31,720 nt of DNA from a virus, in the IMG/VR virus record IMGVR_UViG_3300034121_000256, positions 1 through 31,720 of that record; one strand, given 5' to 3'. The notes beneath the pieces were generated by a model. It saw nothing but the letters and a program-made list of their open reading frames with translations. It searched no databases and had not been told where the DNA came from. Made by a program: the position numbers and the translations under genes. Shown here piece after piece: positions 2,123 through 31,720 of this stretch. Numbering within the stretch: position 1 is the stretch's first letter; each line of letters opens with the position of its first letter.

Positions 2123-2156
2123 AAAGGGGGTGAAAATCCCCCTTTATTTTTATTTT
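2123..2156 (+). terminator. Intrinsic terminator after the capsid gene
   Basis: An 8-bp perfect stem AAAGGGGG (2123-2130) / CCCCCTTT (2138-2145) with a 7-base loop TGAAAAT is followed by ATTTTTATTTT. This is a textbook rho-independent terminator. It sits between the capsid gene and the methyltransferase gene, whose ATG (2157) directly abuts the T-rich tail, so the downstream genes must depend on read-through or on a promoter I cannot see. Confidence 0.9.
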
Positions 2157-2666
2157 ATGCCATATTCATTTGACTATTATAAAGAAGATGTAAAAGAACA
2201 TATAATGCGTAATATTCCACATTATGCTAAAGTTCTTGATGTTGGTGCTGGTAGTGGAAAGTATGGAATGATGCTGAAAGATTATTTTGGCAAAATTCAT
2301 GCACTTGAAGTATATGAACCATATATTGACAAGTTTGAGTTACATTCTATTTATTCAACCATTTTTTGTGCTGATGTACTTGACTTTGATATAAGCGAAT
2401 ACGATTATATCATAATGGGTGATATAATTGAACATATAGAATTAAACGATGCACAAGAATTATTAAGTTATATTAATAATAGTGGCAAGAAATTTATTGT
2501 TGCCGTTCCCTATCAAATGAAACAAGATGAAGTTGGTGGTAATGTTTATGAAAAGCATTTACAACCTGATTTAACACAAAATAATTTTATTGAACGATAT
2601 CCATATATGAGATTGTTATTTAACAATGAATTATATGGGTATTATGTAAACTACCAATTTATATGA
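2157..2666 (+). CDS. Class I SAM-dependent methyltransferase
   Basis: 169-residue protein with SAM-binding motif I VLDVGAGSGKYG at residues 26-37 and a motif resembling YIIMGDIIEHI at about 84-94, typical of the small-molecule methyltransferase superfamily (Methyltransf_11/23 type). The substrate cannot be read from the sequence; with a glycosyltransferase overlapping its end, a sugar or surface glycan is a reasonable guess, DNA less so because no target-recognition domain is visible. I start it at ATG 2157; the in-frame GTG at 2130 lies within the terminator stem. The stop overlaps the next gene's start (ATGA at 2663-2666), so the two are translationally coupled. Confidence 0.8.
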   Translation: MPYSFDYYKEDVKEHIMRNIPHYAKVLDVGAGSGKYGMMLKDYFGKIHALEVYEPYIDKFELHSIYSTIFCADVLDFDISEYDYIIMGDIIEHIELNDAQELLSYINNSGKKFIVAVPYQMKQDEVGGNVYEKHLQPDLTQNNFIERYPYMRLLFNNELYGYYVNYQFI

Positions 2667-3637
2667 ATATAGTATGTTCAATCCATCTTTACCCACCACA
2701 ACATAATTGCGGTGCAGAATATATGTTACATCGGATTATGAAGTATTTGCAATCCAAAGGACATAATGTTAGGATTTTATTGCATCAAGCTAATCATTAT
2801 AAAATTAAAAACAATTATGTATTTGATGGTATTGATGTATTTCCACCAAATCCAAATGTAATTGAAAATTTATTTAATTGGAGTGATATAATTTTTACTC
2901 ATTTGGATTTTACCAAATGGTCAATTGCTTATTCAGCAATGAAAAGAAAGCCATTATTTCATTTAATTCATAATTCATATCCATATCCTGAAATTATACA
3001 AGCAGAGAGAAATCAACACATTGTGTACAATTCAGAGTGGTTAAAGGATGAATTAGCATATAAATTTGATAACTTTACTCTAACCCCACCACTTGACTAT
3101 TCTTTTTTTGATACTGAAAACGATCCAAGTGAAAATGAATTTATCACTTTAATTAATCTGAACGAAAATAAAGGTGGTAAGATATTTGAAGAAATTGCAA
3201 GGGCGTTACCCAACAAGAAGTTTTTAGCGGTTAAAGGTAGTTATGATCAACAAATTGTTCCACAACTACCAAATATTGAGGTTATGAATAATACATCTAA
3301 TATAAAAGATGTGTATAAAAAAACTAAAATATTATTAATGCCAAGTAAGTATGAAAGTTGGGGTATGACTGCAAGTGAAGCAATGTGTTACGGAATACCA
3401 GTTATTTGTACTGATACACCTGGTTTAAAAGAAAACTGTGATAAAGCTGGAATATATATTAAAAATCGTGATGACATTAAAGAATGGGTTAGTGCAATCA
3501 GTAAATTGGATGAAGAAAAGAATTATAAAGCAGCATCAAGAAAAGCAAGAAGTAGATCAAAAGAACAAGCATCAAATGATAACTTGGACAAGTTCCACTA
3601 CTGGATGCGAGAAATGGCAAATAAATACAATCAGTAA
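2663..3637 (+). CDS. Glycosyltransferase, GT4-like
   Basis: 324-residue protein with two Rossmann-like halves, as in GT-B glycosyltransferases. The N-terminus has a GAEYMLHRIMKYLQSKGH segment like GT4 enzymes. The C-terminal half carries LLMPSKYESWGMTASEAM, the E-x7-E nucleotide-sugar signature (about residues 229-240), followed by GIPVICTDTPGLKE. It would transfer a sugar from an activated donor; acceptor unknown. It overlaps the methyltransferase by 4 bp and is followed 2 bp later by the head-tail connector gene. The pair interrupts an otherwise standard capsid-to-tail gene order and may modify virion or host glycans, which is inference. Confidence 0.82.
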   Translation: MNIVCSIHLYPPQHNCGAEYMLHRIMKYLQSKGHNVRILLHQANHYKIKNNYVFDGIDVFPPNPNVIENLFNWSDIIFTHLDFTKWSIAYSAMKRKPLFHLIHNSYPYPEIIQAERNQHIVYNSEWLKDELAYKFDNFTLTPPLDYSFFDTENDPSENEFITLINLNENKGGKIFEEIARALPNKKFLAVKGSYDQQIVPQLPNIEVMNNTSNIKDVYKKTKILLMPSKYESWGMTASEAMCYGIPVICTDTPGLKENCDKAGIYIKNRDDIKEWVSAISKLDEEKNYKAASRKARSRSKEQASNDNLDKFHYWMREMANKYNQ

Positions 3638-5519: not shown

Positions 5520-5885
5520 ATGAATTATACTAAAATTGATATTGACGGACAAACTATTGGATTGAAATTTGGAATGGCATCGTTTAGATATCTTCAAGGC
5601 AAGATGGTTGATGGTATTGCATTTGATGGTAACACATTAAATGAAATTGGTATATCACAAGTATTATATTCAGGTTATTATAATAATTGTCTAATAAAAG
5701 AAGAAATACCATCATTATCATTTGAATCATTTGTTGATTATATTGAAAAGAATTTAACAAATGATATATTTCTTGAAGAAGTAAAAAGAGTGATTACCAT
5801 TTGGGCTGATAGTGATTTTATAAAGCAGACACAACAAACTGAAAAACCTGAAGCAAAAAAAAAGAGTACTCGTGGGAAGAAATAG
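5520..5885 (+). CDS. Tail assembly chaperone, short (G-like) form
   Basis: 121 residues, translated in the zero frame only. It follows the tail tube gene by 2 bp and precedes the tape measure, the normal place of the tail assembly chaperone. The C-terminus is Lys-rich (PEAKKKSTRGKK) and is encoded across a run of nine A residues at 5855-5863, where ribosomes probably shift into the -1 frame to make the longer form. Chaperones of this kind bind the tape measure during tail assembly and are not part of the finished virion. Confidence 0.82.
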   Translation: MNYTKIDIDGQTIGLKFGMASFRYLQGKMVDGIAFDGNTLNEIGISQVLYSGYYNNCLIKEEIPSLSFESFVDYIEKNLTNDIFLEEVKRVITIWADSDFIKQTQQTEKPEAKKKSTRGKK

Positions 5886-6157
5886 AAAGATTTGCTTTCG
5901 GTGAACTTGGTTTATTGCCTAATCAATTTTATGCAATATCACCAAAACATTTTACATTGATGTTAGATGGTTATCAAAACAAGAAAATTGATAATTATAA
6001 ACTTACAAGGTTATTGATGTTTACTATGGTGCGTTTAATGGGTGATCCAAAGACTGCACCAAAATCACCAAATGCTTTGTGGGAACTTCCAGGTGATGAT
6101 AGTGAAAATGGGGTTACTGATGAAGATATAAAAGAATTATTTAAAAGACTTGGATGA
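5520..6157 (+). CDS. Tail assembly chaperone, long (G-T) form made by -1 frameshift
   Basis: A -1 shift at the A9-G run joins residues 1-115 of the short form to 97 residues read from base 5864, giving about 212 residues. The shifted frame reads YSWEEIERFAFGELGLLPNQ immediately after the slip, then FYAISPKHFTLMLDG, a conserved pattern of tail chaperone T domains. That conserved stretch begins well upstream of the first plausible start in this frame (a TTG at 5915), which argues that the second part is not translated independently. Its stop overlaps the tape measure start (ATGA, 6154-6157). Frameshifted G/GT pairs are known across long-tailed phages. Confidence 0.83.
5855..5864 (+). promoter_or_regulatory. 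Programmed -1 ribosomal frameshift site
   Basis: Zero-frame codons GCA AAA AAA AAG create two overlapping X-XXY-YYZ heptamers, A-AAA-AAA and A-AAA-AAG, both slippery for -1 shifting. The zero frame stops 19 bases later at TAG 5883-5885; the -1 frame is open through 6157. The 8-base palindrome GAGTACTC (5864-5871) follows directly. I see no strong stem-loop right after it. Confidence 0.8.
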
Positions 6158-7845
6158 GTATAAATATAAAAATAGGTGCTGATGTAAGTAGTGTTGATAC
6201 TGCCATTAATGATGTAACAAAATCATTAAATGGCTTAAAGACACCAGTTAAAAATGCCAATTTTGCTTTATTATCATTAAGTCAGGTAACAAGGGATTTG
6301 CCATTTGGATTTATAGCAATTCAGAATAACTTACCATTAGTAGTTGATTCATTTGGTCAGTTAACAAAAGAAGCTGGTGGTGTAGTACCAGCATTGAAAT
6401 CACTTGGTGCATCTTTGATTGGCCCAGCTGGTATTGGATTGGCATTTAGTGCAGTTACTTCACTTATAACAGTAGCAGTTCAAAAATATGGTTCACTTGG
6501 TAATGCTATTGATGCTATATTTTCAAAAAATAGTGAGTTAGTAGCATCACAACAATTATTCAATAAAGAGTTTGCGGATGCAGCTGGTAATACACAAGCT
6601 GAAGCTGAAAAGATAAAAATACTTGTCAGAAATCTAAATGATTTAACAAAACCATTAGCTGATAGATATGCAGCTTATGTTGAGTTAAGAAAAATATCAC
6701 CTGATATTGTTGCTGGTATAAAAGAAGAAAATGCATTAACCGAAAAGAGTATAGGAATTATTAATGCCAATGCACAAGCAAGAAAGGAACTTTTATTACT
6801 TAAAGCAAGAGAATCAGCTATTGGTGCAGTAATAAATAAAAATGCATCTGAACAATTTGCACTTGAATTACAAATTCAGCAAAATGTCAAAGATTTAGTT
6901 ACTGCACAAAATAATTATAATAATTCAAAAAATCAAGGTAGTGTATTAGCAAAAACTGCCCAACAAGGTATAAGTGCTGAATCAGTAAGTTTAAGAAATG
7001 CAAGAAATGAATATACTAATAATGTAAATGCATATAATAAATTAATTGATGTTCAAACGGCTTATGCAAATCAACTTGATCCTATTGTTAGTAAAATAGC
7101 AAACATTGATGGTGCAACAAAAACATTAAATAATTCAACAAAAGAATTATCAAAATCAACTGAAAAACAAGCAAAAGATTTTACTGCAACACAAGTTGCA
7201 GCATCAGCATTATTGGATATATATAAAGGTATTTCCGATATTACAAGAGGTCAAGCAATTCAACTTGATACTAAAGCACTTGATAAAATTAGCGGTAAAG
7301 GTCTTAATTTGACACCTACTGTTGATTTAAAAAAAGCTATTGATGTAAATCAAATATCAGGAATACAAACAGTATTAGCCCAAGCAACAATAAATTCACA
7401 AATTGCAATTACTAATGCAAATAAAGCTATTGTGGATAATTTTAATCAAACATTTGATGCAATATCAAATGTTTTTTTTAGTCCAATACAAGACTTGTTT
7501 TCAAACTTTATACAAACTGGTAAGTTTGCATTTAAGGACTTTGCAAAGGCAGTTTTACAAGCAATTTCACAAGTGGTTGCAAAAGTTATTGCAACTGGAA
7601 TTATAACATTATTAGCAAGTATATTTACCGGTGGTCTTGGTGCTGGTGGTGCAGTTGCAAAAGGTGGAGGTTTTGGCAAAATATTACTTGGTGCATTAGG
7701 TATTGGTGGGGTATCAAATCCATCATTTGGCGGTGTAAGTGGTGGTGGTATGCAAATGGCTGGATCGGTTAATATGGTTTTAAGAGGTCAAGACTTGGTT
7801 GGTTCATTAAATCGTACAAATTCACAAATTTCAAGAGTTGGCTGA
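6154..7845 (+). CDS. Tail tape measure protein
   Basis: 563-residue protein that should set tail length and lie inside the tail tube. It has a long helical, Ala/Asn/Lys/Gln-rich middle, a hydrophobic stretch at about residues 80-110 (LGASLIGPAGIGLAFSA and on), and a Gly-rich hydrophobic C-terminal region at about 460-525 containing SIFTGGLGAGGAVAKGGG. Position directly after the chaperone pair is diagnostic. At 563 residues it is short for the family, which predicts a short flexible tail. The start overlaps the chaperone stop by 4 bp and the end overlaps the next gene by 8 bp. Confidence 0.86.
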   Translation: MSINIKIGADVSSVDTAINDVTKSLNGLKTPVKNANFALLSLSQVTRDLPFGFIAIQNNLPLVVDSFGQLTKEAGGVVPALKSLGASLIGPAGIGLAFSAVTSLITVAVQKYGSLGNAIDAIFSKNSELVASQQLFNKEFADAAGNTQAEAEKIKILVRNLNDLTKPLADRYAAYVELRKISPDIVAGIKEENALTEKSIGIINANAQARKELLLLKARESAIGAVINKNASEQFALELQIQQNVKDLVTAQNNYNNSKNQGSVLAKTAQQGISAESVSLRNARNEYTNNVNAYNKLIDVQTAYANQLDPIVSKIANIDGATKTLNNSTKELSKSTEKQAKDFTATQVAASALLDIYKGISDITRGQAIQLDTKALDKISGKGLNLTPTVDLKKAIDVNQISGIQTVLAQATINSQIAITNANKAIVDNFNQTFDAISNVFFSPIQDLFSNFIQTGKFAFKDFAKAVLQAISQVVAKVIATGIITLLASIFTGGLGAGGAVAKGGGFGKILLGALGIGGVSNPSFGGVSGGGMQMAGSVNMVLRGQDLVGSLNRTNSQISRVG

Positions 7846-10252
7846 AAAATATAGAATAAAATTTAAGACATTACAAGGTCAACAATGTATTGTTCGTTTT
7901 CTTTACGAATCATATACTGGTGGCTCAACTGAACTGCTTGGTTCTTCATCACCATTTGTATTAAGAGAATACAATACTGATGAAAATTTTTATAAGCCAG
8001 TAAGACCAATGATGGCTGAAATACAAATTATTACTGATAATAGTGTATCTATTGATAATTTTTTGAGTGATACTGACAATGAAATTAAAGTAATATTTGA
8101 TTTTGGTAGCTTTACAAATTATTGGATTGGTTGGTTGATGCAAGATGATTTTCAAGAAATATGGGAAAGCACAAATCACATTTTACTTTTAAGGGCGAGT
8201 GATGGCATTGGTCTTTTAGAAAATGTGCCATTGCAAGATAATAGTGGAAATGAACTTCTTGGTAAGTTTACACCTTACGATTTGATAAAATATGCTATGT
8301 ATCAAACACCACAAACATTTGTTAATAGTGTTGTGATAAATAACTTATTTCATACATCAATGAATGACGCAAGTGGTCAAATGCCATTGGATCAATGTTA
8401 TATTGATGCAAAAACATTTCAAACTGATGTTCCAATTCAATATGAATCATCATTAACTGTATTAAATAAGATTAATAGTGCATTTAGTCAAACATTGTTT
8501 CAATATAAAGGGCAATGGCATATTTTAAGAAATGAGGAATTATACGCACCATTTTCTGAAAATTTAAGAGGCTTTACAAATAGTGGTGGTGGTAGAACAT
8601 CATTTACAAAAAGGTATGATCTTGAGATTGGCAACAATAGTGAAATGAAATTTATTACACCATCGGTTTTGAGGTTTATAAATCGTAAAAAAAGATTGGT
8701 TAAAACAAAGTTTTTATATGATGAATTTGAAGAAGTAATAGATAATGAATCTTTTTCAAGGGGTGCATTTGATTCGGCTGGAAGTAATGTTAGATATTAT
8801 GATTTAGATTACTGGCAAGTTGGTAAATTACCAGCTTATGCACCAGTACCAAGTGCAAGTTTATTTGGTAGGATTGAAGAATTTGATGGTGCTGGTAGGC
8901 TTATAGATAATTATGCTTATTTAACACCTGATGGAACAGATATTTCATTTATATATTCTAATCAATTTAATGTAGAAAATGAAGAAAAGTTAGATATATC
9001 ATTTGATGTTAAAATCGAAGATCCAAATAATCCAATTGGTACATCGAATCAAGCATATTTGTTATTGTGGGGTGAATTGGGTGGATATTATATGCTTGAT
9101 AATGATGGTGTTTGGAAAAGCACTTCATCAACATTTAATAGTCCATATAGTATTTTTACTAAATATACTGATAAAGTTTTAGCATCAGAATATCAATCTA
9201 TAAATATAGTAACGCAACCAATTCCTGAAAAAGGATATATTAAATTATATTTAGTTAACAATGCTGATACTTTAACTGGTACTGCAATAAAAAGGTTTAA
9301 ATCTTTAAAGGTTAAAGTAATATCTTATTTTAATTCATTTTCTGATAGGCAAAATATAGGTATTGAATCAATATTTGAAAAAGATGTTTTATTAAAAACT
9401 GAAGCATTAAATCAAATATATCTTGATGATGGGTTTTCATACCATTACAAAGGGAATATATTTGAATCAGATGAAGCAACTTTTACTAATAAAGAATGGT
9501 ATAGGTATCGTTTTAAATCTACTGGTGAGGCTAACGGATTTCGTGCATCAAATCTTATTGCAAATTGGGAGGTTGGTAGATTTAATCGTAATCGTTTTGA
9601 TGCTAATATGTATGGTCTTATTTGGAACGATGGAACAACTGACCAACCATTGGGATTAATTAATACAGTTAAACTTGTTACTGATGATCCTGATAAGGTT
9701 TATGGCATATTAAACTTAAAGGAAATAAATTTTAGCAATTCAACTTGGTCTGCTACTTTAGTTGAAATATATGATGAAAATCTTGATGATGATTCAAGTA
9801 CAGTTAGCAAAACACTTGATACAACAACAACTTCAGGTACTTATAACGCATTAGTTTATGCTAAATTAACAATTGTAAGTGCAGCTGATTTTTTAATTAA
9901 TAGTAATCAAGACCAACTTATTTATAATGGTTCAAATAGTATAACTGTTAATATTACTGCAAGAATTAATGGAATGATAAATAGCAGAACAAGTTCACCA
10001 ATTGAAATTACATTAAGAAAAAATGCAACTATATTAAACACTTATACTTTAGCAGTTCCATCAACACCATTTCCATTTGCTGCTAATTTAGATGTTAGTG
10101 GTATTTTATTAAATAATGGTGATGAATTATTCATTCAATATAGCAGTAATATAACGCAAGTACAAGTAACAAGTGGTGGTATTGATATAACATATAGTGT
10201 AACTGAACCATTTAATTATGATACTTATACTGATGCAGTAATAAATAATTAA
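7838..10252 (+). CDS. Large tail tip / distal tail-baseplate protein
   Basis: 804 residues directly after the tape measure, where distal tail and tail-associated hub proteins are encoded. It looks beta-rich throughout, with an N-terminal part (FKTLQGQQCIVRFLYE, later YWIGWLMQDDFQE) that recalls tail proteins of Bacteroidota phages, and a C-terminal domain of short Thr/Ser-rich strands. No enzymatic motif was found. The start is TTG at 7838, overlapping the tape measure by 8 bp; the first in-frame ATG is far downstream and would remove conserved-looking sequence. The function within the tail tip is inferred from position. Confidence 0.68.
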   Translation: MAEKYRIKFKTLQGQQCIVRFLYESYTGGSTELLGSSSPFVLREYNTDENFYKPVRPMMAEIQIITDNSVSIDNFLSDTDNEIKVIFDFGSFTNYWIGWLMQDDFQEIWESTNHILLLRASDGIGLLENVPLQDNSGNELLGKFTPYDLIKYAMYQTPQTFVNSVVINNLFHTSMNDASGQMPLDQCYIDAKTFQTDVPIQYESSLTVLNKINSAFSQTLFQYKGQWHILRNEELYAPFSENLRGFTNSGGGRTSFTKRYDLEIGNNSEMKFITPSVLRFINRKKRLVKTKFLYDEFEEVIDNESFSRGAFDSAGSNVRYYDLDYWQVGKLPAYAPVPSASLFGRIEEFDGAGRLIDNYAYLTPDGTDISFIYSNQFNVENEEKLDISFDVKIEDPNNPIGTSNQAYLLLWGELGGYYMLDNDGVWKSTSSTFNSPYSIFTKYTDKVLASEYQSINIVTQPIPEKGYIKLYLVNNADTLTGTAIKRFKSLKVKVISYFNSFSDRQNIGIESIFEKDVLLKTEALNQIYLDDGFSYHYKGNIFESDEATFTNKEWYRYRFKSTGEANGFRASNLIANWEVGRFNRNRFDANMYGLIWNDGTTDQPLGLINTVKLVTDDPDKVYGILNLKEINFSNSTWSATLVEIYDENLDDDSSTVSKTLDTTTTSGTYNALVYAKLTIVSAADFLINSNQDQLIYNGSNSITVNITARINGMINSRTSSPIEITLRKNATILNTYTLAVPSTPFPFAANLDVSGILLNNGDELFIQYSSNITQVQVTSGGIDITYSVTEPFNYDTYTDAVINN

Positions 10253-10256
10253 TAAT

Positions 10257-10904
10257 ATGGCATATAACATAACGGCAGAGGGTTTGGTAATGACATTAAC
10301 ATCAGGTGGAAATACTTATCCTATTGCTTGTGCTAAAGATGTATCAATAAATTTAAATAGATCATTCATTGAATTGGCATCATATAGCAATGAAGTTTTT
10401 AGGGAGTATTTACCTGAAAGGGTTAGTGGCACAATAACTGGGAACGCCTTGGTGCTTTTAGAAGGAAGTTATACGCATCCTATGAGTGTTCTTTTTGATG
10501 ATATTTATGATACAACACCAACTTTGTTTAATATTAGTTTTGATGTATTAGATAATAAGACATCAGCACCTAATTATATTGTATATGAAACCAATGCCTA
10601 TTTACAAGATATAACAATGAATAGTGCTACTGGTCAAAACCCATCTTATTCATTTACACTACAAATTAGTGGGGCAGTAGTACCATCAACTTCAAATACT
10701 ACAACTTTTGCTACACAACAAACTTTGGCATCAGGTAAGGTTACTGCACAAGATCCATCAGCTAAAAAGCTATATGCGGTAGGATTTTTTGGCAAATGGT
10801 ATTATAGCTATGTTGTAACAACACCAAGTGCTGGGGTATATGAGATATTAATACCTGGTGTTGCTAACGGAACAAAAATAACAATTTTATATAAAGATTT
10901 ATAA
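10257..10904 (+). CDS. Tail tube-like protein, second copy type
   Basis: 215 residues. The N-terminal half has KDVSINLNRSFIELASYSN followed by REYLPERVSGTITGNALV and later TGQNPSYSFTLQISGAV, a pattern shared with TP901-1-type tail tube proteins (beta strands with an acceptor for the next subunit). The C-terminal ~65 residues form an extra beta-rich domain (KLYAVGFFGKWYYSYVVTTP onwards). Since a shorter tube candidate lies at 5086, this one may be a tip or tube-capping relative. Located after the large tail tip gene with a 4-bp gap. Confidence 0.58.
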   Translation: MAYNITAEGLVMTLTSGGNTYPIACAKDVSINLNRSFIELASYSNEVFREYLPERVSGTITGNALVLLEGSYTHPMSVLFDDIYDTTPTLFNISFDVLDNKTSAPNYIVYETNAYLQDITMNSATGQNPSYSFTLQISGAVVPSTSNTTTFATQQTLASGKVTAQDPSAKKLYAVGFFGKWYYSYVVTTPSAGVYEILIPGVANGTKITILYKDL

Positions 10905-10905
10905 T

Positions 10906-11112
10906 ATGAAACATTGGATAAATAAGCAATTAGTTAAGTATTTTGGAGCAAGTTGGAAAACAAGTTTGCTTGGATTTATAAGCGGTATATCAATAGTGAT
11001 ACAAGATGTTGTGGAAAGGGGTGTTACGGATATTTATAGGATAATTTTGGCTATTTCCGTATATTTGCTTGGGTTGTTTGCTGCTGACAATACTAAAACT
11101 GGGGTGAAATGA
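10906..11112 (+). CDS. Small two-TM protein, holin candidate
   Basis: 68 residues with two likely membrane helices at about 18-35 (LLGFISGISIVI) and 44-61 (IILAISVYLLGLF), joined by a short charged loop, and basic residues at both ends. Size and topology fit a holin, and it overlaps by 4 bp another small membrane protein gene, but it is 5 kb from the endolysin and no family motif was recognised. A tail-associated membrane role is the alternative. Confidence 0.5.
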   Translation: MKHWINKQLVKYFGASWKTSLLGFISGISIVIQDVVERGVTDIYRIILAISVYLLGLFAADNTKTGVK

Positions 11113-11330
11113 CAAATGAAATAATATTTGCTATTTTAGTTCAATCGGTTGCTTTTATTGGTGCATTTACTAAAATGTTTACTGACATGAAAATCAAGTT
11201 AAAAGAACTTGATATAAGATTAAGCCAAGTTGAGAAAAAGGATGATGAAATAGGCAATAAACTTGAAAAGATTTTTGCAAGTCTTAACGATATAAAACTT
11301 ACTTTAAAAGATAAACAAGATAAGCCATGA
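11109..11330 (+). CDS. Small TM plus coiled-coil protein (XhlA/holin-like candidate)
   Basis: 73 residues. One N-terminal membrane helix (about residues 4-22, IIFAILVQSVAFIGAF) is followed by a strongly charged amphipathic coiled coil to the end (LKELDIRLSQVEKKDDE and on). The layout resembles XhlA-type accessory lysis proteins turned around, but there is no decisive motif. ATGA overlaps on both sides (11109-11112 and 11327-11330) couple it to its neighbours. Confidence 0.5.
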   Translation: MTNEIIFAILVQSVAFIGAFTKMFTDMKIKLKELDIRLSQVEKKDDEIGNKLEKIFASLNDIKLTLKDKQDKP

Positions 11331-11665
11331 TAGGGGAAACAAATTTAAGACCAATAAAAAGGGGTGATACTTATATTATTCCGTTTGAATTTTATGCAGA
11401 CGAGTGCGAATCAACACCTATTAATGTAAGCACATATATATTTAAACTAATGGCAAAAAATAGTAGTGGCGTAACACAATTTACTTGGAATAATGCTGAC
11501 TTTGTAAGTGTTGCTACAAATAAAAGGACTGTAACATTATCTAATGTTACTACTGCCACATATAATATTGGCGAGTTTAGTTATGAGTTACAAGTTGATG
11601 TTGGTAGTGGTGTTTATACTTGGATGATTGGATATATTGAAGTTCAGGATCAAATAACATCGTAG
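11327..11665 (+). CDS. Baseplate upper protein N-domain-like (BppU-like) tail protein
   Basis: 112 residues. The opening RPIKRGDTYIIPFEF, followed by ...PINVSTYIFKLMAKNSSG and alternating beta strands ending SGVYTWMIGYIEVQD, matches the small beta-sandwich found at the N-terminus of phage baseplate upper proteins and related receptor-binding adaptors. It lies immediately before the first large fibre gene and probably anchors fibres to the tail tip. No catalytic residues. Confidence 0.6.
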   Translation: MIGETNLRPIKRGDTYIIPFEFYADECESTPINVSTYIFKLMAKNSSGVTQFTWNNADFVSVATNKRTVTLSNVTTATYNIGEFSYELQVDVGSGVYTWMIGYIEVQDQITS

Positions 11666-11668
11666 AAT

Positions 11669-14158
11669 ATGATAGTAATTAAAATAAATTATGCAAGTGC
11701 ATCACCTATTGTCAATGTAAATTATGACATATCACCTATATATGTTAGGGTGATGTATGGCGGTTCTTCTGATAGCATTACTGAGTGGGGTGAGATTGTT
11801 GGCACATTATCAAATCAAATTGATTTACAAAATGCTTTAAATGCAAAGCAAAATACTTTAACATTAACTACAACTGGAACGAGTGGTGCATCAACACTTA
11901 TTGGTAGTACATTAAATATTCCGCAATATGCTGATGCCGTTACATCGGTGTTTGGCAGAACTGGTGCAATAGTATCAACCGAAGGTGATTACACATTAAC
12001 ACAACTTGGTGATGTAACATTAACAAGTCCTACAAATGGACAAGTGCTTAAATATAATGGTACTACATGGGTTAATAATACTGATACTGATACTGGTCTT
12101 ACTTCAGTAGGACTTACTATGCCATCAGCATTTACGGTCAGCAATTCACCATTGACAAGCAATGGGACAATTGGTGTTACGGGTGCTGGTACTTCTGCTC
12201 AATATATTCGTGGTGATGGTCAACTTGCTAATTTTCCAAGCAATGGGGGAGGAGGTTCTGCCTTTAACTACTATTTAAATGGTAGTGTTAGCCAAGGTAC
12301 TTTTGGTGGTGATGTTTATTATGAAATGAGTAAGACACCTGTAATTGGTACTGGTACTGATTTCACAAGAACAAATGCACAAGGCAATGGATATATAGCA
12401 TCATTTCTAACTGATGCTGGAGATCCATCACTTTTAAATATACCTGGTGGTAATTGGAATTTAGAGTTTTATTTTCAAGCAAGTAGTGGTGGTGGAAGTC
12501 CACAATTCTATGGTGAATTATATAAGGTTAGTTCTTCAAATGTTTTTACACTTGTTGCAAGTGGTTCAGCCAATCCCGAAGGGATTACAAATGGCACAAC
12601 GGTTGACCAATACTACACATCTATTCCAGTTCCACAAACATCTTTGCTTGTAACGGATAGGTTAGCTATTAGGATTTATGTGATAACAAGTGGTAGGACA
12701 ATAACATTACATACAGAGAATAGTAATCTTTGTGAGGTATTAACAACATTCTCAACAGGTTTAAATGCTCTTAATGGACTTACTGCACAAGTGCAATACT
12801 TTGCAACTGGTACAAGTGGAACAGACTTTGCAATTAGTTCAGCAACAGATACACATACATTCAATTTGCCAACTGCATCTGCAACAAATAGGGGTGCATT
12901 AAGTAGTGCTGATTGGACAACATTCAATAATAAGCAAAACACTATTACAAACCCAGTAACGGGAACAGGAACAACAAACTATGTAGCTCGTTGGACAAGT
13001 GGTAGTGATATTGGTGTTGGGGTATTGTATGATAATGGTACTAATGTTGGTATAGGTACTACAAGTCCTGCATATAAATTAAATGTAAGTGGTTCTGCAT
13101 ATTCAAGTTTAGGCTTAATCACACAAGGTTATACATTAGCAGCAAGTGGTTTGAATATTGAAATGGGAACTATTAGTGGTTATGCTCAAATAAATGCATA
13201 TAATAGAACAACACCTGCCTTTGGTAGTTTGAGATTAGATGGAAGTAATATTATGTTAAATTCGGGTAGTGGCGGCAACGTACTCATAGGCACAACGACT
13301 GATAGCGGTCAGAAGTTGCAAGTAACGGGTACTGCGAAGGTGTCAAGTAGTGTAACGGCAAGTAGATTTATAAGCACTAGTTCATCAAGTTATAATAATG
13401 ATTTTTTAAATACAAACATTGGAACTGTTGGACAAAATATTGCATTAAGATTTGGATATGATGGTACAACATATAATAAGGGTGCTTTATATTTTATAAG
13501 TAAAAGTTCAAATGGTGTAGGTGATTTAATATTTGCTTTAAATAATGCAGAAAATAGTTCAAATGTTGCAACATCAGATGAACGTATGCGTATCACTTCA
13601 GGTGGCAACGTACTTGTTGGAACAACGACTGATAGTGGCTATAAATTTGATGTGAATGGTACTGCGAGGGTGCAATCAAATTTATTTGTATCAAGTGGTA
13701 ATGCTTTTGCAAGTTTAGGAAATGCTGTTAATCTTAGGTCTAATCTTGCAGGAGGTAGTAGTTATGTTGTAGATGCTCAAAGTTATAATACTTTAAGTGG
13801 TACAAATGTTGAGCAAGGATTTGGATTATTTACAGGTACTTATGCTCCTACAAGTGCAAGTGGTACTCCTTCATTTAATGCTATAAAACTTACTCCCACC
13901 ATAAACCAAACAGGTGGAGCAAATGGTATAACAAGAGGACTTTATATTAATCCTACACTTACAAGTGCTGCTGATTGGAGAGCCATTGAGGTCAGTTCGG
14001 GTGTTTCTATTATGGCTGCATCATCTACCGCAAGTGCATCACTTAGAATACCATCTGGTACTGCACCAACATCACCTAACGATGGTGATATATGGTTTGA
14101 TGGAACAAACCTTAAAATGAGAATAGGCGGAGTAACAAAAACATTTACAATAATATAA
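11669..14158 (+). CDS. Tail fibre protein 1, repetitive
   Basis: 829 residues, Gly/Ser/Thr-rich. An N-terminal region has VFGRTGAIVSTEGDYTLTQL and SPTNGQVLKYNGTTWVN repeats common in fibres; a Gly-rich hinge (SNGGGGS, about residue 190) precedes a globular beta domain. Further on come copies of a repeat of the form IGTTSPAYKLNVSGSA / VLIGTTTDSGQKLQVTGTAKV / VLVGTTTDSGYKFDVNGTARV, which stack as beta hairpins in trimeric fibres. The end SPNDGDIWFDGTNLKMRIGG is a typical fibre tip segment. No intramolecular chaperone (S74) domain was seen. It probably contributes to host binding. Confidence 0.85.
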   Translation: MIVIKINYASASPIVNVNYDISPIYVRVMYGGSSDSITEWGEIVGTLSNQIDLQNALNAKQNTLTLTTTGTSGASTLIGSTLNIPQYADAVTSVFGRTGAIVSTEGDYTLTQLGDVTLTSPTNGQVLKYNGTTWVNNTDTDTGLTSVGLTMPSAFTVSNSPLTSNGTIGVTGAGTSAQYIRGDGQLANFPSNGGGGSAFNYYLNGSVSQGTFGGDVYYEMSKTPVIGTGTDFTRTNAQGNGYIASFLTDAGDPSLLNIPGGNWNLEFYFQASSGGGSPQFYGELYKVSSSNVFTLVASGSANPEGITNGTTVDQYYTSIPVPQTSLLVTDRLAIRIYVITSGRTITLHTENSNLCEVLTTFSTGLNALNGLTAQVQYFATGTSGTDFAISSATDTHTFNLPTASATNRGALSSADWTTFNNKQNTITNPVTGTGTTNYVARWTSGSDIGVGVLYDNGTNVGIGTTSPAYKLNVSGSAYSSLGLITQGYTLAASGLNIEMGTISGYAQINAYNRTTPAFGSLRLDGSNIMLNSGSGGNVLIGTTTDSGQKLQVTGTAKVSSSVTASRFISTSSSSYNNDFLNTNIGTVGQNIALRFGYDGTTYNKGALYFISKSSNGVGDLIFALNNAENSSNVATSDERMRITSGGNVLVGTTTDSGYKFDVNGTARVQSNLFVSSGNAFASLGNAVNLRSNLAGGSSYVVDAQSYNTLSGTNVEQGFGLFTGTYAPTSASGTPSFNAIKLTPTINQTGGANGITRGLYINPTLTSAADWRAIEVSSGVSIMAASSTASASLRIPSGTAPTSPNDGDIWFDGTNLKMRIGGVTKTFTII
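13274..13342 (+). repeat. Fibre hairpin repeat, copy 1
   Basis: A 69-bp unit beginning GGCAACGTACT with a core ACAACGACTGATAG and ending ACTGCGAAGGTG. It is closely repeated 330 bp downstream (13604-13672), with long blocks of identity. The codons are more GC-rich than the flanking fibre sequence. Confidence 0.8.
13604..13672 (+). repeat. Fibre hairpin repeat, copy 2
   Basis: Second copy of the 69-bp unit at 13274-13342, with the same GGCAACGTACT opening and the same ACAACGACTGATAG core, ending ACTGCGAGGGTG. Diverged protein-level versions occur in the second fibre (about 15400-15470 and 15950-16020). Confidence 0.8.
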
Positions 14159-24185: not shown

Positions 24186-26693
24186 ATGATTGAGAATTAC
24201 CTTGAACAAGGGTTGAACATTATTGCCGTAAATGACCAAAAACAAGCAATATTCCCTTGGAAAATTTATCAGACAACAAAAATCACACTTAATGAAATAA
24301 ATCGGCAAATGTCGGATTATAAAGCAAAAGGTATTGCGGTGATTACTGGAGCAATCTCCGCAAATCTTGAGGTTATAGACATTGATACCAAATACCAAAC
24401 TTATGATCTTTGGGATGCCTTAAAATCAAGAATACCAAATGAACTGTTTGACAAGCTACAAATAGTAAGAACAAAGAACAATGGCTATCACCTATATTAT
24501 AGATGTGAATCAATTGAAAAGAATAAGAAATTGGCACAAAGGCATCCAACACCAGCTGAACTAAAATCACACCCACAAAACAAAACTTATACTATTATTG
24601 AAACAAGGGGTGAAGGTGGTTATGTTGTTGCACCACCATCACTTGGATATGAAATGTTACAAAATGGGATAAATGTAATTACATTGGATGAACGTAACCA
24701 ACTTCTTGACATTTGTAGGTCATTTAATGAAGTATTTGAAGAAGTCATATTACAAGCACATGAAAGACCATCAACAAAGGAATTTGGATTATCACCATTT
24801 GAAGATTACAACAATCGTGGTGATATAGTTGCCCTATTAGGCAACCATAGTTGGTCAATAGTTGGTGAAAATACAGAAAGGATATACTTTTTAAGACCTG
24901 GATCATCAGCTAAACATTCAGGTTCTTGGAATAAAGAAATGGGTTTGTTTTCAGTTTTTTCCGTTAATACTTCATTTCAGGTTGAAAAGGGTTATAAGAA
25001 ATATGCGGTTTTTTGCATACTTGAATGTAATGGTGATTTTAAGTTAGCTGCTAAAAAATTGCTTGAACTTGGATTTGGTGAAAAAAAAACCACCTTAAAT
25101 AAAGTTGAATCAGAATTATATAAACTTAAAAATGATGGTGCATCTGAAGATGATTTATCAAGTATATTAGTTAAGAAACTTGATATAAGCATTTCCGAAG
25201 CACAAAAGAAAGTTAATAAGTTTGTTAATGACTGGGGTGATAACTTACTTACCTTTTGGGATTTAGATAAAAACGGAAATCCTACCATAAACCGGTACAA
25301 ACTACAAACATTTCTAACCAAAGATGGTGGCTTTAAACTTTACTTTTATGATACTAATAATACATTTTTTCGCCTCATAAAAGTTGAAGATGGGTTTATT
25401 TTTGATGCATCAACTGAACAAGTAAAGAAATATATCAAAAATTATATAGACAAACAAAAAGATAAGTTTGATGGTGGGGTAACACCACAAGACATTCTTG
25501 AACTTATTTATAAAGGTTCATCAATGCTATTTTCAGAATCGGCATTTGAATTCTTTGATAGGGCAGAAATTAACTTTCTTAAAGATGATAAAGAAACTGG
25601 TTATTTTCCATTTAAAAATGGTGTTGTAGAGGTAAAAAAGGACACAATAAAACTTAAAACTTATGGTGAACTTGGAAAGGTTATTTGGAAATCGCAAGTA
25701 ATTGACCATTACATAACCATAAATCAAGACAGTATTGATCCTGAAAACATTGAATACTTTAGGTTTATTAAAAGAATATCTAACAATGAACCTGAAAAGT
25801 ATCTTTATTGCATCTCTATCATTGGTTACTTACTTCATCAGTACAAAGACCCAGCAAGACCTTATGCAATCATTCTTGCTGAAGAAAACGACAATGATGA
25901 AAATGGTGGTGGTACTGGTAAAGGAATCTTTGTTAAGGCTTTAAGCTATATTTTAAACACTATTAGGGTTGATGGTAAGAACTTCAAGATAGATAAGAAC
26001 TTTGCTTTTCAAAGGGTTGACCTTGATACAAAGATTATAGCAATTGAGGACACAAGAAAGAAAGTGGACTTTGAAGGGTTTTATTCTATCATAACTGAAG
26101 GCATAACAGTTGAGAAAAAGAACCAGGATGAACTTTTTATACCTTATAAAGATTCACCAAAGATTCTATTTACAACAAATTATTCAATTCCGCAAAATGG
26201 AGTTCATGCCAAACGTAGGCAAAGGATATTTGAATTTGCATCTTACTTTAACCAAAATCACACACCTGAAGATGAATTTGGACACAAACTTTTTGATGAT
26301 TGGGATAAGGATGAATGGAATAGATTCTACAACCTATTTTTCTTTTGTTTACAGGACTATTTAACCAATGGTGTAGCCAATGTACCATTTTCGGAAAAAA
26401 TGGCAAGGAAGGCTATTAAAAATCAATTTGGTGATGATTTTAATGAATACCTTGATGAAATAGTAAAACATAAGGAATGGGTAAGCATTGATTCTTTGCA
26501 CCAAGAATTTCTAAATATATATGGTTTAGACAAAAAAGAATACAGTAGAATTAGGTTTACAAAGGGGTTAAAAAGTGGTTGTGAAATACTCAAAAAGCGG
26601 TTGGAAGAAAAAAAGGATCATAACAATTCAGGTAAAAAAGTTATAAAAATCCAAAACCCAACCGAATTTGATGAAAATTTAACCACTTTTTGA
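24186..26693 (+). CDS. Primase-helicase: Prim-Pol domain plus SF3 helicase
   Basis: 835 residues. The N-terminal Prim-Pol (archaeo-eukaryotic primase-like) domain has VIDID at 63-67 (metal-binding DxD), NNGYHLYYR at 98-106 and GEGGYVVAPPS at 142-152. A middle region follows, and the C-terminal helicase has Walker A GGGTGKG near residue 574, a Walker B-like KIIAIEDT near 618 and an SF3 sensor-like ILFTTNYSIPQNG. It should make primers and unwind the phage origin or fork, and since no DNA polymerase gene is visible it may also synthesise short stretches or recruit the host enzyme. The gene ends in the first of the ACCACTT repeats. Confidence 0.9.
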   Translation: MIENYLEQGLNIIAVNDQKQAIFPWKIYQTTKITLNEINRQMSDYKAKGIAVITGAISANLEVIDIDTKYQTYDLWDALKSRIPNELFDKLQIVRTKNNGYHLYYRCESIEKNKKLAQRHPTPAELKSHPQNKTYTIIETRGEGGYVVAPPSLGYEMLQNGINVITLDERNQLLDICRSFNEVFEEVILQAHERPSTKEFGLSPFEDYNNRGDIVALLGNHSWSIVGENTERIYFLRPGSSAKHSGSWNKEMGLFSVFSVNTSFQVEKGYKKYAVFCILECNGDFKLAAKKLLELGFGEKKTTLNKVESELYKLKNDGASEDDLSSILVKKLDISISEAQKKVNKFVNDWGDNLLTFWDLDKNGNPTINRYKLQTFLTKDGGFKLYFYDTNNTFFRLIKVEDGFIFDASTEQVKKYIKNYIDKQKDKFDGGVTPQDILELIYKGSSMLFSESAFEFFDRAEINFLKDDKETGYFPFKNGVVEVKKDTIKLKTYGELGKVIWKSQVIDHYITINQDSIDPENIEYFRFIKRISNNEPEKYLYCISIIGYLLHQYKDPARPYAIILAEENDNDENGGGTGKGIFVKALSYILNTIRVDGKNFKIDKNFAFQRVDLDTKIIAIEDTRKKVDFEGFYSIITEGITVEKKNQDELFIPYKDSPKILFTTNYSIPQNGVHAKRRQRIFEFASYFNQNHTPEDEFGHKLFDDWDKDEWNRFYNLFFFCLQDYLTNGVANVPFSEKMARKAIKNQFGDDFNEYLDEIVKHKEWVSIDSLHQEFLNIYGLDKKEYSRIRFTKGLKSGCEILKKRLEEKKDHNNSGKKVIKIQNPTEFDENLTTF

Positions 26694-26858
26694 TTTTACT
26701 TAACCACTTTTTTTACTAACTAAAACATTGATTAACAATACACTACCACTTCTACCACTTTTTTTCTATTTTGATATAGATTTAAAAAAAGAGTATAAAA
26801 TAGAGGGAGGGGGGGGGTAGAGAACACACACACACGCATAACCCAAAAAAATAATAAA
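26679..26858. other. Candidate replication origin: iteron-like repeats, AT-rich stretch, G-run
   Basis: The non-coding stretch 26694-26858 (plus the end of the primase gene) holds ACCACTT at 26682, 26703, 26745 and 26754; the first two lie in identical TTAACCACTTTTT units 21 bp apart, the third is 42 bp on, both close to whole helical turns, and the last two are tandem CTACCACTT. An AT-rich part (26761-26800), GGGA followed by nine G (26805-26817) and a CA repeat (26824-26834) follow. It lies between the primase-helicase and a DnaA domain IV-like protein. Origin function is inference; no single DnaA box TTATCCACA is present. Confidence 0.5.
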
Positions 26859-27263
26859 ATGAACAAAGATTTACTATTAGAAATTATATCAGAAGTTTCA
26901 GGAATACCAAAAATTTTAATACTTAAAAAGAATAGAACAAGAAAGTATTTAGTACCAAGACAAATTTATACTTACTTACTACGAAAGGTTTTAAAAATGA
27001 CCTTAAAAGAAATAGGTGATATATTAAATTCAGATCATACCACAGTTATACATTCAGTCAAAAAAGTTGAGATACTTCTTGAAATAGAAGATGAAATACT
27101 TTGCAACATCTATTATGATGTTGAACAAAGGATGCGTATGCTAATTAAAGAACCTTTAAGATATGTTTTGACTTTTCCAGCTGATAGGTTACTTATAAAT
27201 GAGATTGAGGACATTCAAAAAAATTATAGTTGTAATATTGAAAGATTTTCACATTTTCACTAA
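26859..27263 (+). CDS. DnaA domain IV-like DNA-binding protein
   Basis: 134 residues. Residues about 8 to 75 match the C-terminal duplex DNA-binding domain of DnaA: KYLVPRQIYTYLLRKVLKM, then TLKEIGDILNSDHTTVIHSV, including the DnaA signature D-H-T-T-V-I-H (59-65). The AAA+ ATPase and the other DnaA domains are absent, and about 60 residues of unrelated helical sequence follow. It could bind DnaA-box-like sites in the phage or host origin, either to load the phage helicase or to compete with host DnaA. The gene starts right after the repeat-bearing stretch. A-rich leader ATAATAAA. Confidence 0.85.
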   Translation: MNKDLLLEIISEVSGIPKILILKKNRTRKYLVPRQIYTYLLRKVLKMTLKEIGDILNSDHTTVIHSVKKVEILLEIEDEILCNIYYDVEQRMRMLIKEPLRYVLTFPADRLLINEIEDIQKNYSCNIERFSHFH

Positions 27264-31291: not shown

Positions 31292-31720
31292 ATGCCAATA
31301 TTTAGATGCGATAATGGGAAATATAGGATTGGTGAAGGCGAGTGTATGTACGAATCAGAATCAAGTGCAGAAAGAGCCTATGTAGCTTATTTGGCACAAG
31401 AGAATGATGAAAAGGCAATGACCTATAATGATTATCCTGAATCAGCAACAAACAATGCTAAACGAGCATTAAAGTATAAAGAGGAGAATGGTAGTGATTG
31501 TGGAACACCAGTAGGATGGGCGAGGGCAAATCAACTTGCAAATCGTGAGAAAATATCAAGAGATACGATTGCGAGGATGGCATCATTTAAAAGACATCAA
31601 CAACATAAAGATGTGCCATATACTGAAGGATGCGGTGGCATAATGTGGGATGCTTGGGGTGGTACATCGGGAATTGAGTGGGCAATAAGAAAATTAGATC
31701 AGATAGATAAAAATATAAAT
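31292..31720 (+). CDS. Prohead protease fusion protein, N-terminal part (continues at base 3)
   Basis: From ATG 31292 the ORF is open to the window end (143 codons) and joins in frame with 3-920 once the window is circularised, giving 379 residues. This part starts PIFRCDNGKYRIGEGECMYE with an SSAERAYVAYLAQ helix, then DYPESATNNAKRALKYKEEN, CGTPVGWARANQLANRE and GCGGIMWDAWGGTSG. It is a compact phage domain of unknown function attached to the protease, perhaps a targeting or scaffold-binding module. It contains the 209-bp repeat. Starts 1 bp after the minor head gene. Confidence 0.85.
   Translation, partial: MPIFRCDNGKYRIGEGECMYESESSAERAYVAYLAQENDEKAMTYNDYPESATNNAKRALKYKEENGSDCGTPVGWARANQLANREKISRDTIARMASFKRHQQHKDVPYTEGCGGIMWDAWGGTSGIEWAIRKLDQIDKNIN
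31512..31720. repeat. Right copy of 209-bp terminal direct repeat
   Basis: Matches bases 1-209 with four substitutions (31639, 31672, 31689, 31696), all in the last 82 bases. At the protein level 31672 and 31696 lie in or next to codons whose translation stays the same or conservative (for example Lys to Arg at 31689), so both copies are functional coding sequence. Confidence 0.9.

Follow-up and report, generated by a model that had tools for sequence, protein, structure and literature searches.

At which site does this phage begin to copy its genome, and which of its proteins recognises that site? The question is raised by a locus in which a primase-helicase gene, a cluster of ACCACTT repeats and the gene of a stand-alone DnaA domain IV (DnaA-IV) protein follow each other. 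The repeats and the AT-rich DNA behind them (26679–26806) are very probably the phage replication origin, to judge from sequence comparison. The model developed here as a whole, in which the primase-helicase reads its own iterons at this origin and DnaA-IV is a separate factor that likely acts at host DnaA boxes, is only just probable.

The window, that is, the whole stretch of DNA analysed, is a viral record of 31,720 bases. Its two ends (1–209 and 31512–31720) share an overlap of 209 b that contains 4 mismatches, and the record is thus a complete circular phage genome of ~31.5 kb; the circularly closed genome is an assembly from mixed strains. The phage is of the Bacteroidota type. All of its likely genes lie on one strand, and because they run one way the GC skew is positive throughout. 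In 11 related genomes the detrended GC-skew minimum falls 0.4–5.2 kb from the primase stop, a weak signal from genomes that are not independent. Apart from the locus under study, methyltransferase and glycosyltransferase (GT4) genes are found within the structural gene block (2130–3637), after a capsid-like gene.

The features of the locus are collected in Table 1.

Table 1. Genes and sequence elements at the putative origin, in positions of the window
Feature	Position	Strand	Basis or remark
Primase-helicase P0002, 835 aa	24186..26693	+	Family profiles, AF2, Foldseek
Iteron 1, TTAACCACTTTTT	26679..26691	+	Overlaps primase stop codon; position conserved in L054, L068
Iteron 2, TTAACCACTTTTT	26700..26712	+	21 bp from iteron 1
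TTGATTAACAA, window copy of TTGATWATCAA between the iteron groups	26728..26738	.	Conservation in relatives
Tandem pair, first iteron, CTACCACTT	26743..26751	+	
Tandem pair, second iteron, CTACCACTTTTTTT, 9 bp on	26752..26765	+	
Candidate unwinding element, AT-rich, behind the tandem pair	26761..26806	.	Sequence; AT-rich also in L054, L068
G-run (GGGAGGGGGGGGGTA)	26807..26821	+	G-runs similarly placed in many relatives
Stand-alone DnaA domain IV protein P0001, 134 aa	26859..27263	+	Pfam, AF2, Foldseek

The preliminary description, made from the letters alone, had recognised P0001 as a DnaA domain IV that stands without an AAA+ domain, and this identification is well founded. The profile search against Bac_DnaA_C that it had suggested gives a match above the cutoff (PF08299, E=9.4e-19, 67.7 bits vs a cutoff of 31.5, residues 6–70). 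The Pfam profile search found no match to AAA+ domain III in the protein, which also scores far below the cutoff against full-length DnaA models and bears a C-terminal extension of ~40 aa. Its AF2 model (pLDDT 90.7) matches the DnaA-DBD/DNA structures 3pvp and 1j1v (M. tuberculosis and E. coli) in Foldseek. The E. coli residues R399, R407, D433, H434, T435, T436 and H439, which we take from established structural work on DnaA to be the DnaA-box contacts, mark positions conserved at 89% in the phage proteins, vs 51% elsewhere. D433 is replaced by H in 3 of 27 representative phage DnaA-IV proteins and T436 by S in others. P0001 retains the contact residues, and binding of DnaA boxes is predicted for it. 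Beyond its closest kin, the protein evolves fast, with 22–34% identity to P0001 vs 42–67% for the primase; a scan with P0001 alone returned one distant locus only, and the DnaA-IV alignment is too variable for a collection scan.

This type of protein is not new, since annotations of it exist for cultured phages. Cellulophaga phi18:3 gp012, Olleya Harreka_1 gp24 and many uncultured Caudovirales have small proteins with only Bac_DnaA_C, as in the window, and stand-alone DnaA C-terminal proteins are common among predicted viral structures (59 matches at E<=0.001). A literature search found no tested function for them in phages. Unlike in the window, the stand-alone proteins examined in these phages are not encoded beside a primase gene and an iteron array. 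Each of the 61 Bacteroidota genomes surveyed encodes DnaA in full length, and a further, short match to Bac_DnaA_C is present in only two, so that host chromosomes seldom carry stand-alone copies.

The second candidate for reading the repeats is the primase-helicase. Its N-terminus is a Prim-Pol domain (PF09250, E=3.8e-15, residues 4–154), followed by a P-loop helicase with DUF5906 (residues 575–671, E=1.2e-7). The P4-family primase profile (TIGR01613, primase_Cterm) reaches 19.9 bits vs a cutoff of 108.7, and no solved structure matching P0002 by sequence was found. The SF3 label given earlier to the helicase draws on these weak DUF5906 and primase_Cterm matches only and is provisional. The C-terminal 131 aa are modelled (AF2, pLDDT 83.5) as helices, then a recognition helix, then two strands; Foldseek matches to this part are weak, with a best E of 0.07, and mostly to winged-helix proteins. 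We propose from this model that residues ~740–825 form a winged-helix-like domain that may read the iterons.

The repeats themselves are as first described. ACCACTT occurs on the + strand at 26682, 26703, 26745 and 26754, with spacings of 21, 42 and 9 bp, and the copies at 26679 and 26700 are identical throughout TTAACCACTTTTT. The primase-helicase gene does end inside the first repeat, which shares the first base of the stop codon TGA (26691–26693), and two copies do carry TTAACCACT, which differs from the DnaA box TTATCCACA at 2 of 9 positions. This resemblance is confined to two copies in the subclade of the window. Across the genome ACCACTT is found 26 times vs 4.6 expected; 19 of these copies fall within + strand genes but are read on the minus strand. 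The single copies mentioned earlier, as near 3085 and 3893, lie at 3088 and 3894 and are among 22 copies outside the cluster. It is indeed the clustering that matters and not the bare motif: among 7-mers that contain 3 or more G/C, ACCACTT alone reaches 4 copies in a 72-bp span of this genome, and 100 dinucleotide shuffles yielded no comparable cluster. The cluster is not due to chance. A significant hairpin or stem-loop 3' of the primase gene was not found in the window (DNA fold z=-0.37), and a stem-loop origin like that of plasmid pRN1 is rejected on this ground.

A relative of the primase-helicase is encoded by 69 viral contigs, and ~60 related phage contigs share a single layout behind its stop codon. 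The layout begins with up to four iterons of ~10 bp and the element TTGATWATCAA; two further iterons, in tandem at a distance of 9 bp, and a T-tract come next. TTGATWATCAA (at least 9/10) lies within 170 bp after the stop in 41 of 48 non-redundant loci, vs 69 of 3660 control stretches. The iteron copy number is unmatched by any control window in 25 of the 48 loci and matched by at most one in 30, with 24–40 control windows per locus; the loci counted are related by descent and these counts are not independent. The repeat score was an 8-mer with at most 1 mismatch, as a loose 9-mer (2 mismatches) failed to discriminate in AT-rich DNA. Within the first group, iterons are spaced by 10–12 or 20–21 bp, and the gap from this group to the pair spans 3, 4 or 5 helical turns (~31, 42 or 53 bp). 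When the 9-bp pair is excluded, the gaps follow a period of 10.5 bp (R=0.87), a value reached by 0 of 10000 random sets. The window iterons, at -13, 8, 50 and 59 relative to the primase stop, sit on a grid common to the two nearest relatives L054 and L068; it is the conserved grid of the layout with two copies decayed and no longer recognisable. The suggestion that the window holds a phage origin is strengthened by this phased array, which is conserved in the related phages and not peculiar to one genome. A more distant case, and the only integrated element that the search for a host turned up, is L149 in a Bacteroidetes MAG, with an integrase at 5672–6715 and a primase-helicase of 31% identity at 9056–11377. 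Behind the latter lie TTATCACTTT-type repeats (~11377–11760), and the next ORF does not encode a DnaA-IV. The small element is possibly a satellite with the same origin plan.

Other readings of the locus have to be weighed against this evidence. Instead of an origin, the end of the primase gene may hold a T-rich terminator or low-complexity sequence that arose by chance, and the region is indeed AT-rich with T-tracts. However, the cluster is the sole one of its kind in the genome and is unmatched in the shuffles, the layout is kept across subclades with differing core sequences, and a significant hairpin is absent, all of which leaves such an explanation very improbable. As for the reader of the repeats, the preliminary description had favoured the DnaA-IV protein, which would bind the ACCACTT iterons, bring the primase-helicase there and replace DnaA as the origin recogniser. 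In all 51 inner-clade loci that reach 700 bp or more beyond the primase, window included, a DnaA-IV gene (127–144 aa) follows the primase and its array, which would also fit an origin role; two iteron copies match the DnaA box at 7/9, the contact residues are kept and the fold matches DnaA-DBD/DNA complexes. Despite these points, we consider this proposal unlikely. The array is found without DnaA-IV in L149 and in L055, L056 and L057 (57, 64 and 47 kb), where Bac_DnaA_C is absent from contigs that may be incomplete. Moreover, the iteron core is completely different from one subclade to the next: CCAC in the window and L003, CCGC in L005, CATC in L012 and L069, TTAC in L055 and L057, CGCG, CGTC or CACG in L008, L014, L026, L035 and L043, and GTCC or GCGC in L028 and L038. 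As the DnaA contacts are kept at the high level given above while the cores differ, the contact residues do not follow the iteron changes; identical residues accompany CCAC, CGCG, GTCC and CATC cores. Conversely, one iteron, GTACGCGAT, occurs with four differing recognition helices (DHTTVMH, DHTSVIH, HHASVIH and DHTTAIN). Furthermore, array and DnaA-IV have been exchanged independently. L012 and L013 share 96% identity in the array and 97% in the primase C-terminus vs only 66% in DnaA-IV, and L012 and L008 share 82% in DnaA-IV vs 74% in the array. By these identities L012 is a natural recombinant, in which the array goes with the primase C-terminus and not with DnaA-IV. The arrays of L012 and L008 have copies in common (ACACGA, ACGCGA), and the swap is thus no proof of a change in specificity. 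In the L012 subclade the array correlates with the primase C-terminus given DnaA-IV (partial r 0.85) far more than with DnaA-IV given the primase (0.20), a correlation to which physical linkage contributes and which it alone could explain, since the array adjoins the primase C-terminus. Taken together, the comparison suggests that it is the primase-helicase, and not the DnaA-like protein, that reads the iterons.

The targets of DnaA-IV would then lie elsewhere. Canonical DnaA boxes are not enriched in the phages (112 seen, 138 expected), and host DnaA-box sites are for this reason thought to be its likeliest targets, instead of the phage iterons; near the origin, no canonical box is conserved among the relatives. 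Displacement of host DnaA, which the preliminary description had offered as an alternative, fits better than a DnaA-IV that reads the repeats. Having lost the AAA+ motor, the protein would occupy DnaA-box sites at host oriC or promoters and so blunt host DnaA. It may go as far as a trans dominant-negative effect, in which the captured, motor-less domain sits on the boxes of host oriC and stops host initiation, leaving the phage initiator on its unrelated iterons untouched; this idea is tentative, and we regard it as possible but doubtful. Phage proteins are known to interfere with host initiation in other ways; lambda P and the YfdR cluster, for example, act on DnaA (PMC4776307). DnaA-IV could also be a local transcription regulator of its own promoter and/or the following packaging genes, with the DnaA fold as a conventional HTH. 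Its gene separates the origin from the terminase genes, in L021 and L022 a perfect TTATCCACA precedes the dnaA-IV start codon by 36 bp, and the copies of Cellulophaga phi18:3, Olleya Harreka_1 and Rhizobium RHph_N28_2 are placed among early or methylase genes and not beside a primase. However, L021 and L022 are a near-identical pair and the upstream box is absent from the other subclades, and a local regulatory role appears rather improbable.

In the preferred model, the primase-helicase would bind the iterons through its predicted C-terminal winged-helix domain and form a hexamer along the phased array, where TTGATWATCAA would be bent or occupied by a host factor. The AT-rich DNA beyond the tandem pair would be opened and then primed by the primase-helicase, after which the host polymerase would take over. 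The logic would be that of phage P4 alpha and plasmid pRN1. The window has the features of an iteron origin, i.e. direct repeats in helical phase, AT-rich DNA and an adjoining putative initiator gene. According to PMC4234260, which cites Ziegelin and Lanka (1995) and Yeo et al. (2002), the C-terminal winged helix of P4 alpha binds the origin repeats. P4 alpha and the primase-helicase of the window both combine primase and helicase in one polypeptide, and a C-terminal winged helix like that of P4 alpha is predicted for the latter from its model. The P4 primase is of the Toprim type, whereas that of the window is a Prim-Pol, and the origins differ in repeat sequence, in the TTGATWATCAA layout and in the DnaA-IV gene next to the window array. 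ORF904 of pRN1 comprises a Prim-Pol, an SF3 helicase and a C-terminal winged helix, with the origin just 3' of the replication gene, and its authors proposed stem-loop origins for proteins of this build (PMC4234260). The window shares the Prim-Pol N-terminus and the position of the array just 3' of the replication gene, to which the provisional SF3 helicase and the putative winged helix would be added. However, pRN1 relies on a stem-loop of 100 nt and has no iterons, whereas the window has phased iterons and no significant stem-loop, so that its system can be viewed as a variant of the pRN1 type. With bacterial DnaA and oriC, the window has in common the fold and the contact residues of domain IV; the phage protein differs in being without domains I–III and in its C-terminal extension, and the repeats are mostly unlike DnaA boxes.

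These comparisons predict where a group of uncultured phages has its origin, and the layout allows such origins to be spotted in new genomes despite the changing repeat sequence. They would also extend Prim-Pol/winged-helix initiators, proposed with stem-loop origins, to iteron origins. Additionally, the widespread stand-alone DnaA domain IV proteins of phages become a testable question: whether they serve the phage origin or act against host DnaA.

Some relatives show further variations of the locus. L048–L052 have no DnaA-IV after the primase and instead encode a protein of 237–240 aa, ~370–1080 bp after the stop, which has no NCBIfam match and is sigma-region-4-like to the eye. In L008-type loci, a large subclade, an operator-like inverted repeat (GTACTTGGCAATGCAAGGTAC in L014) lies ~40–60 bp upstream of dnaA-IV. 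Inverted copies of the iteron pair beyond the AT-rich stretch are not present in the window; significant ones occur in L035, L046, L063, L009 and L024, ~90–106 bp after TTGATWATCAA, and the origins of these five look two-sided.
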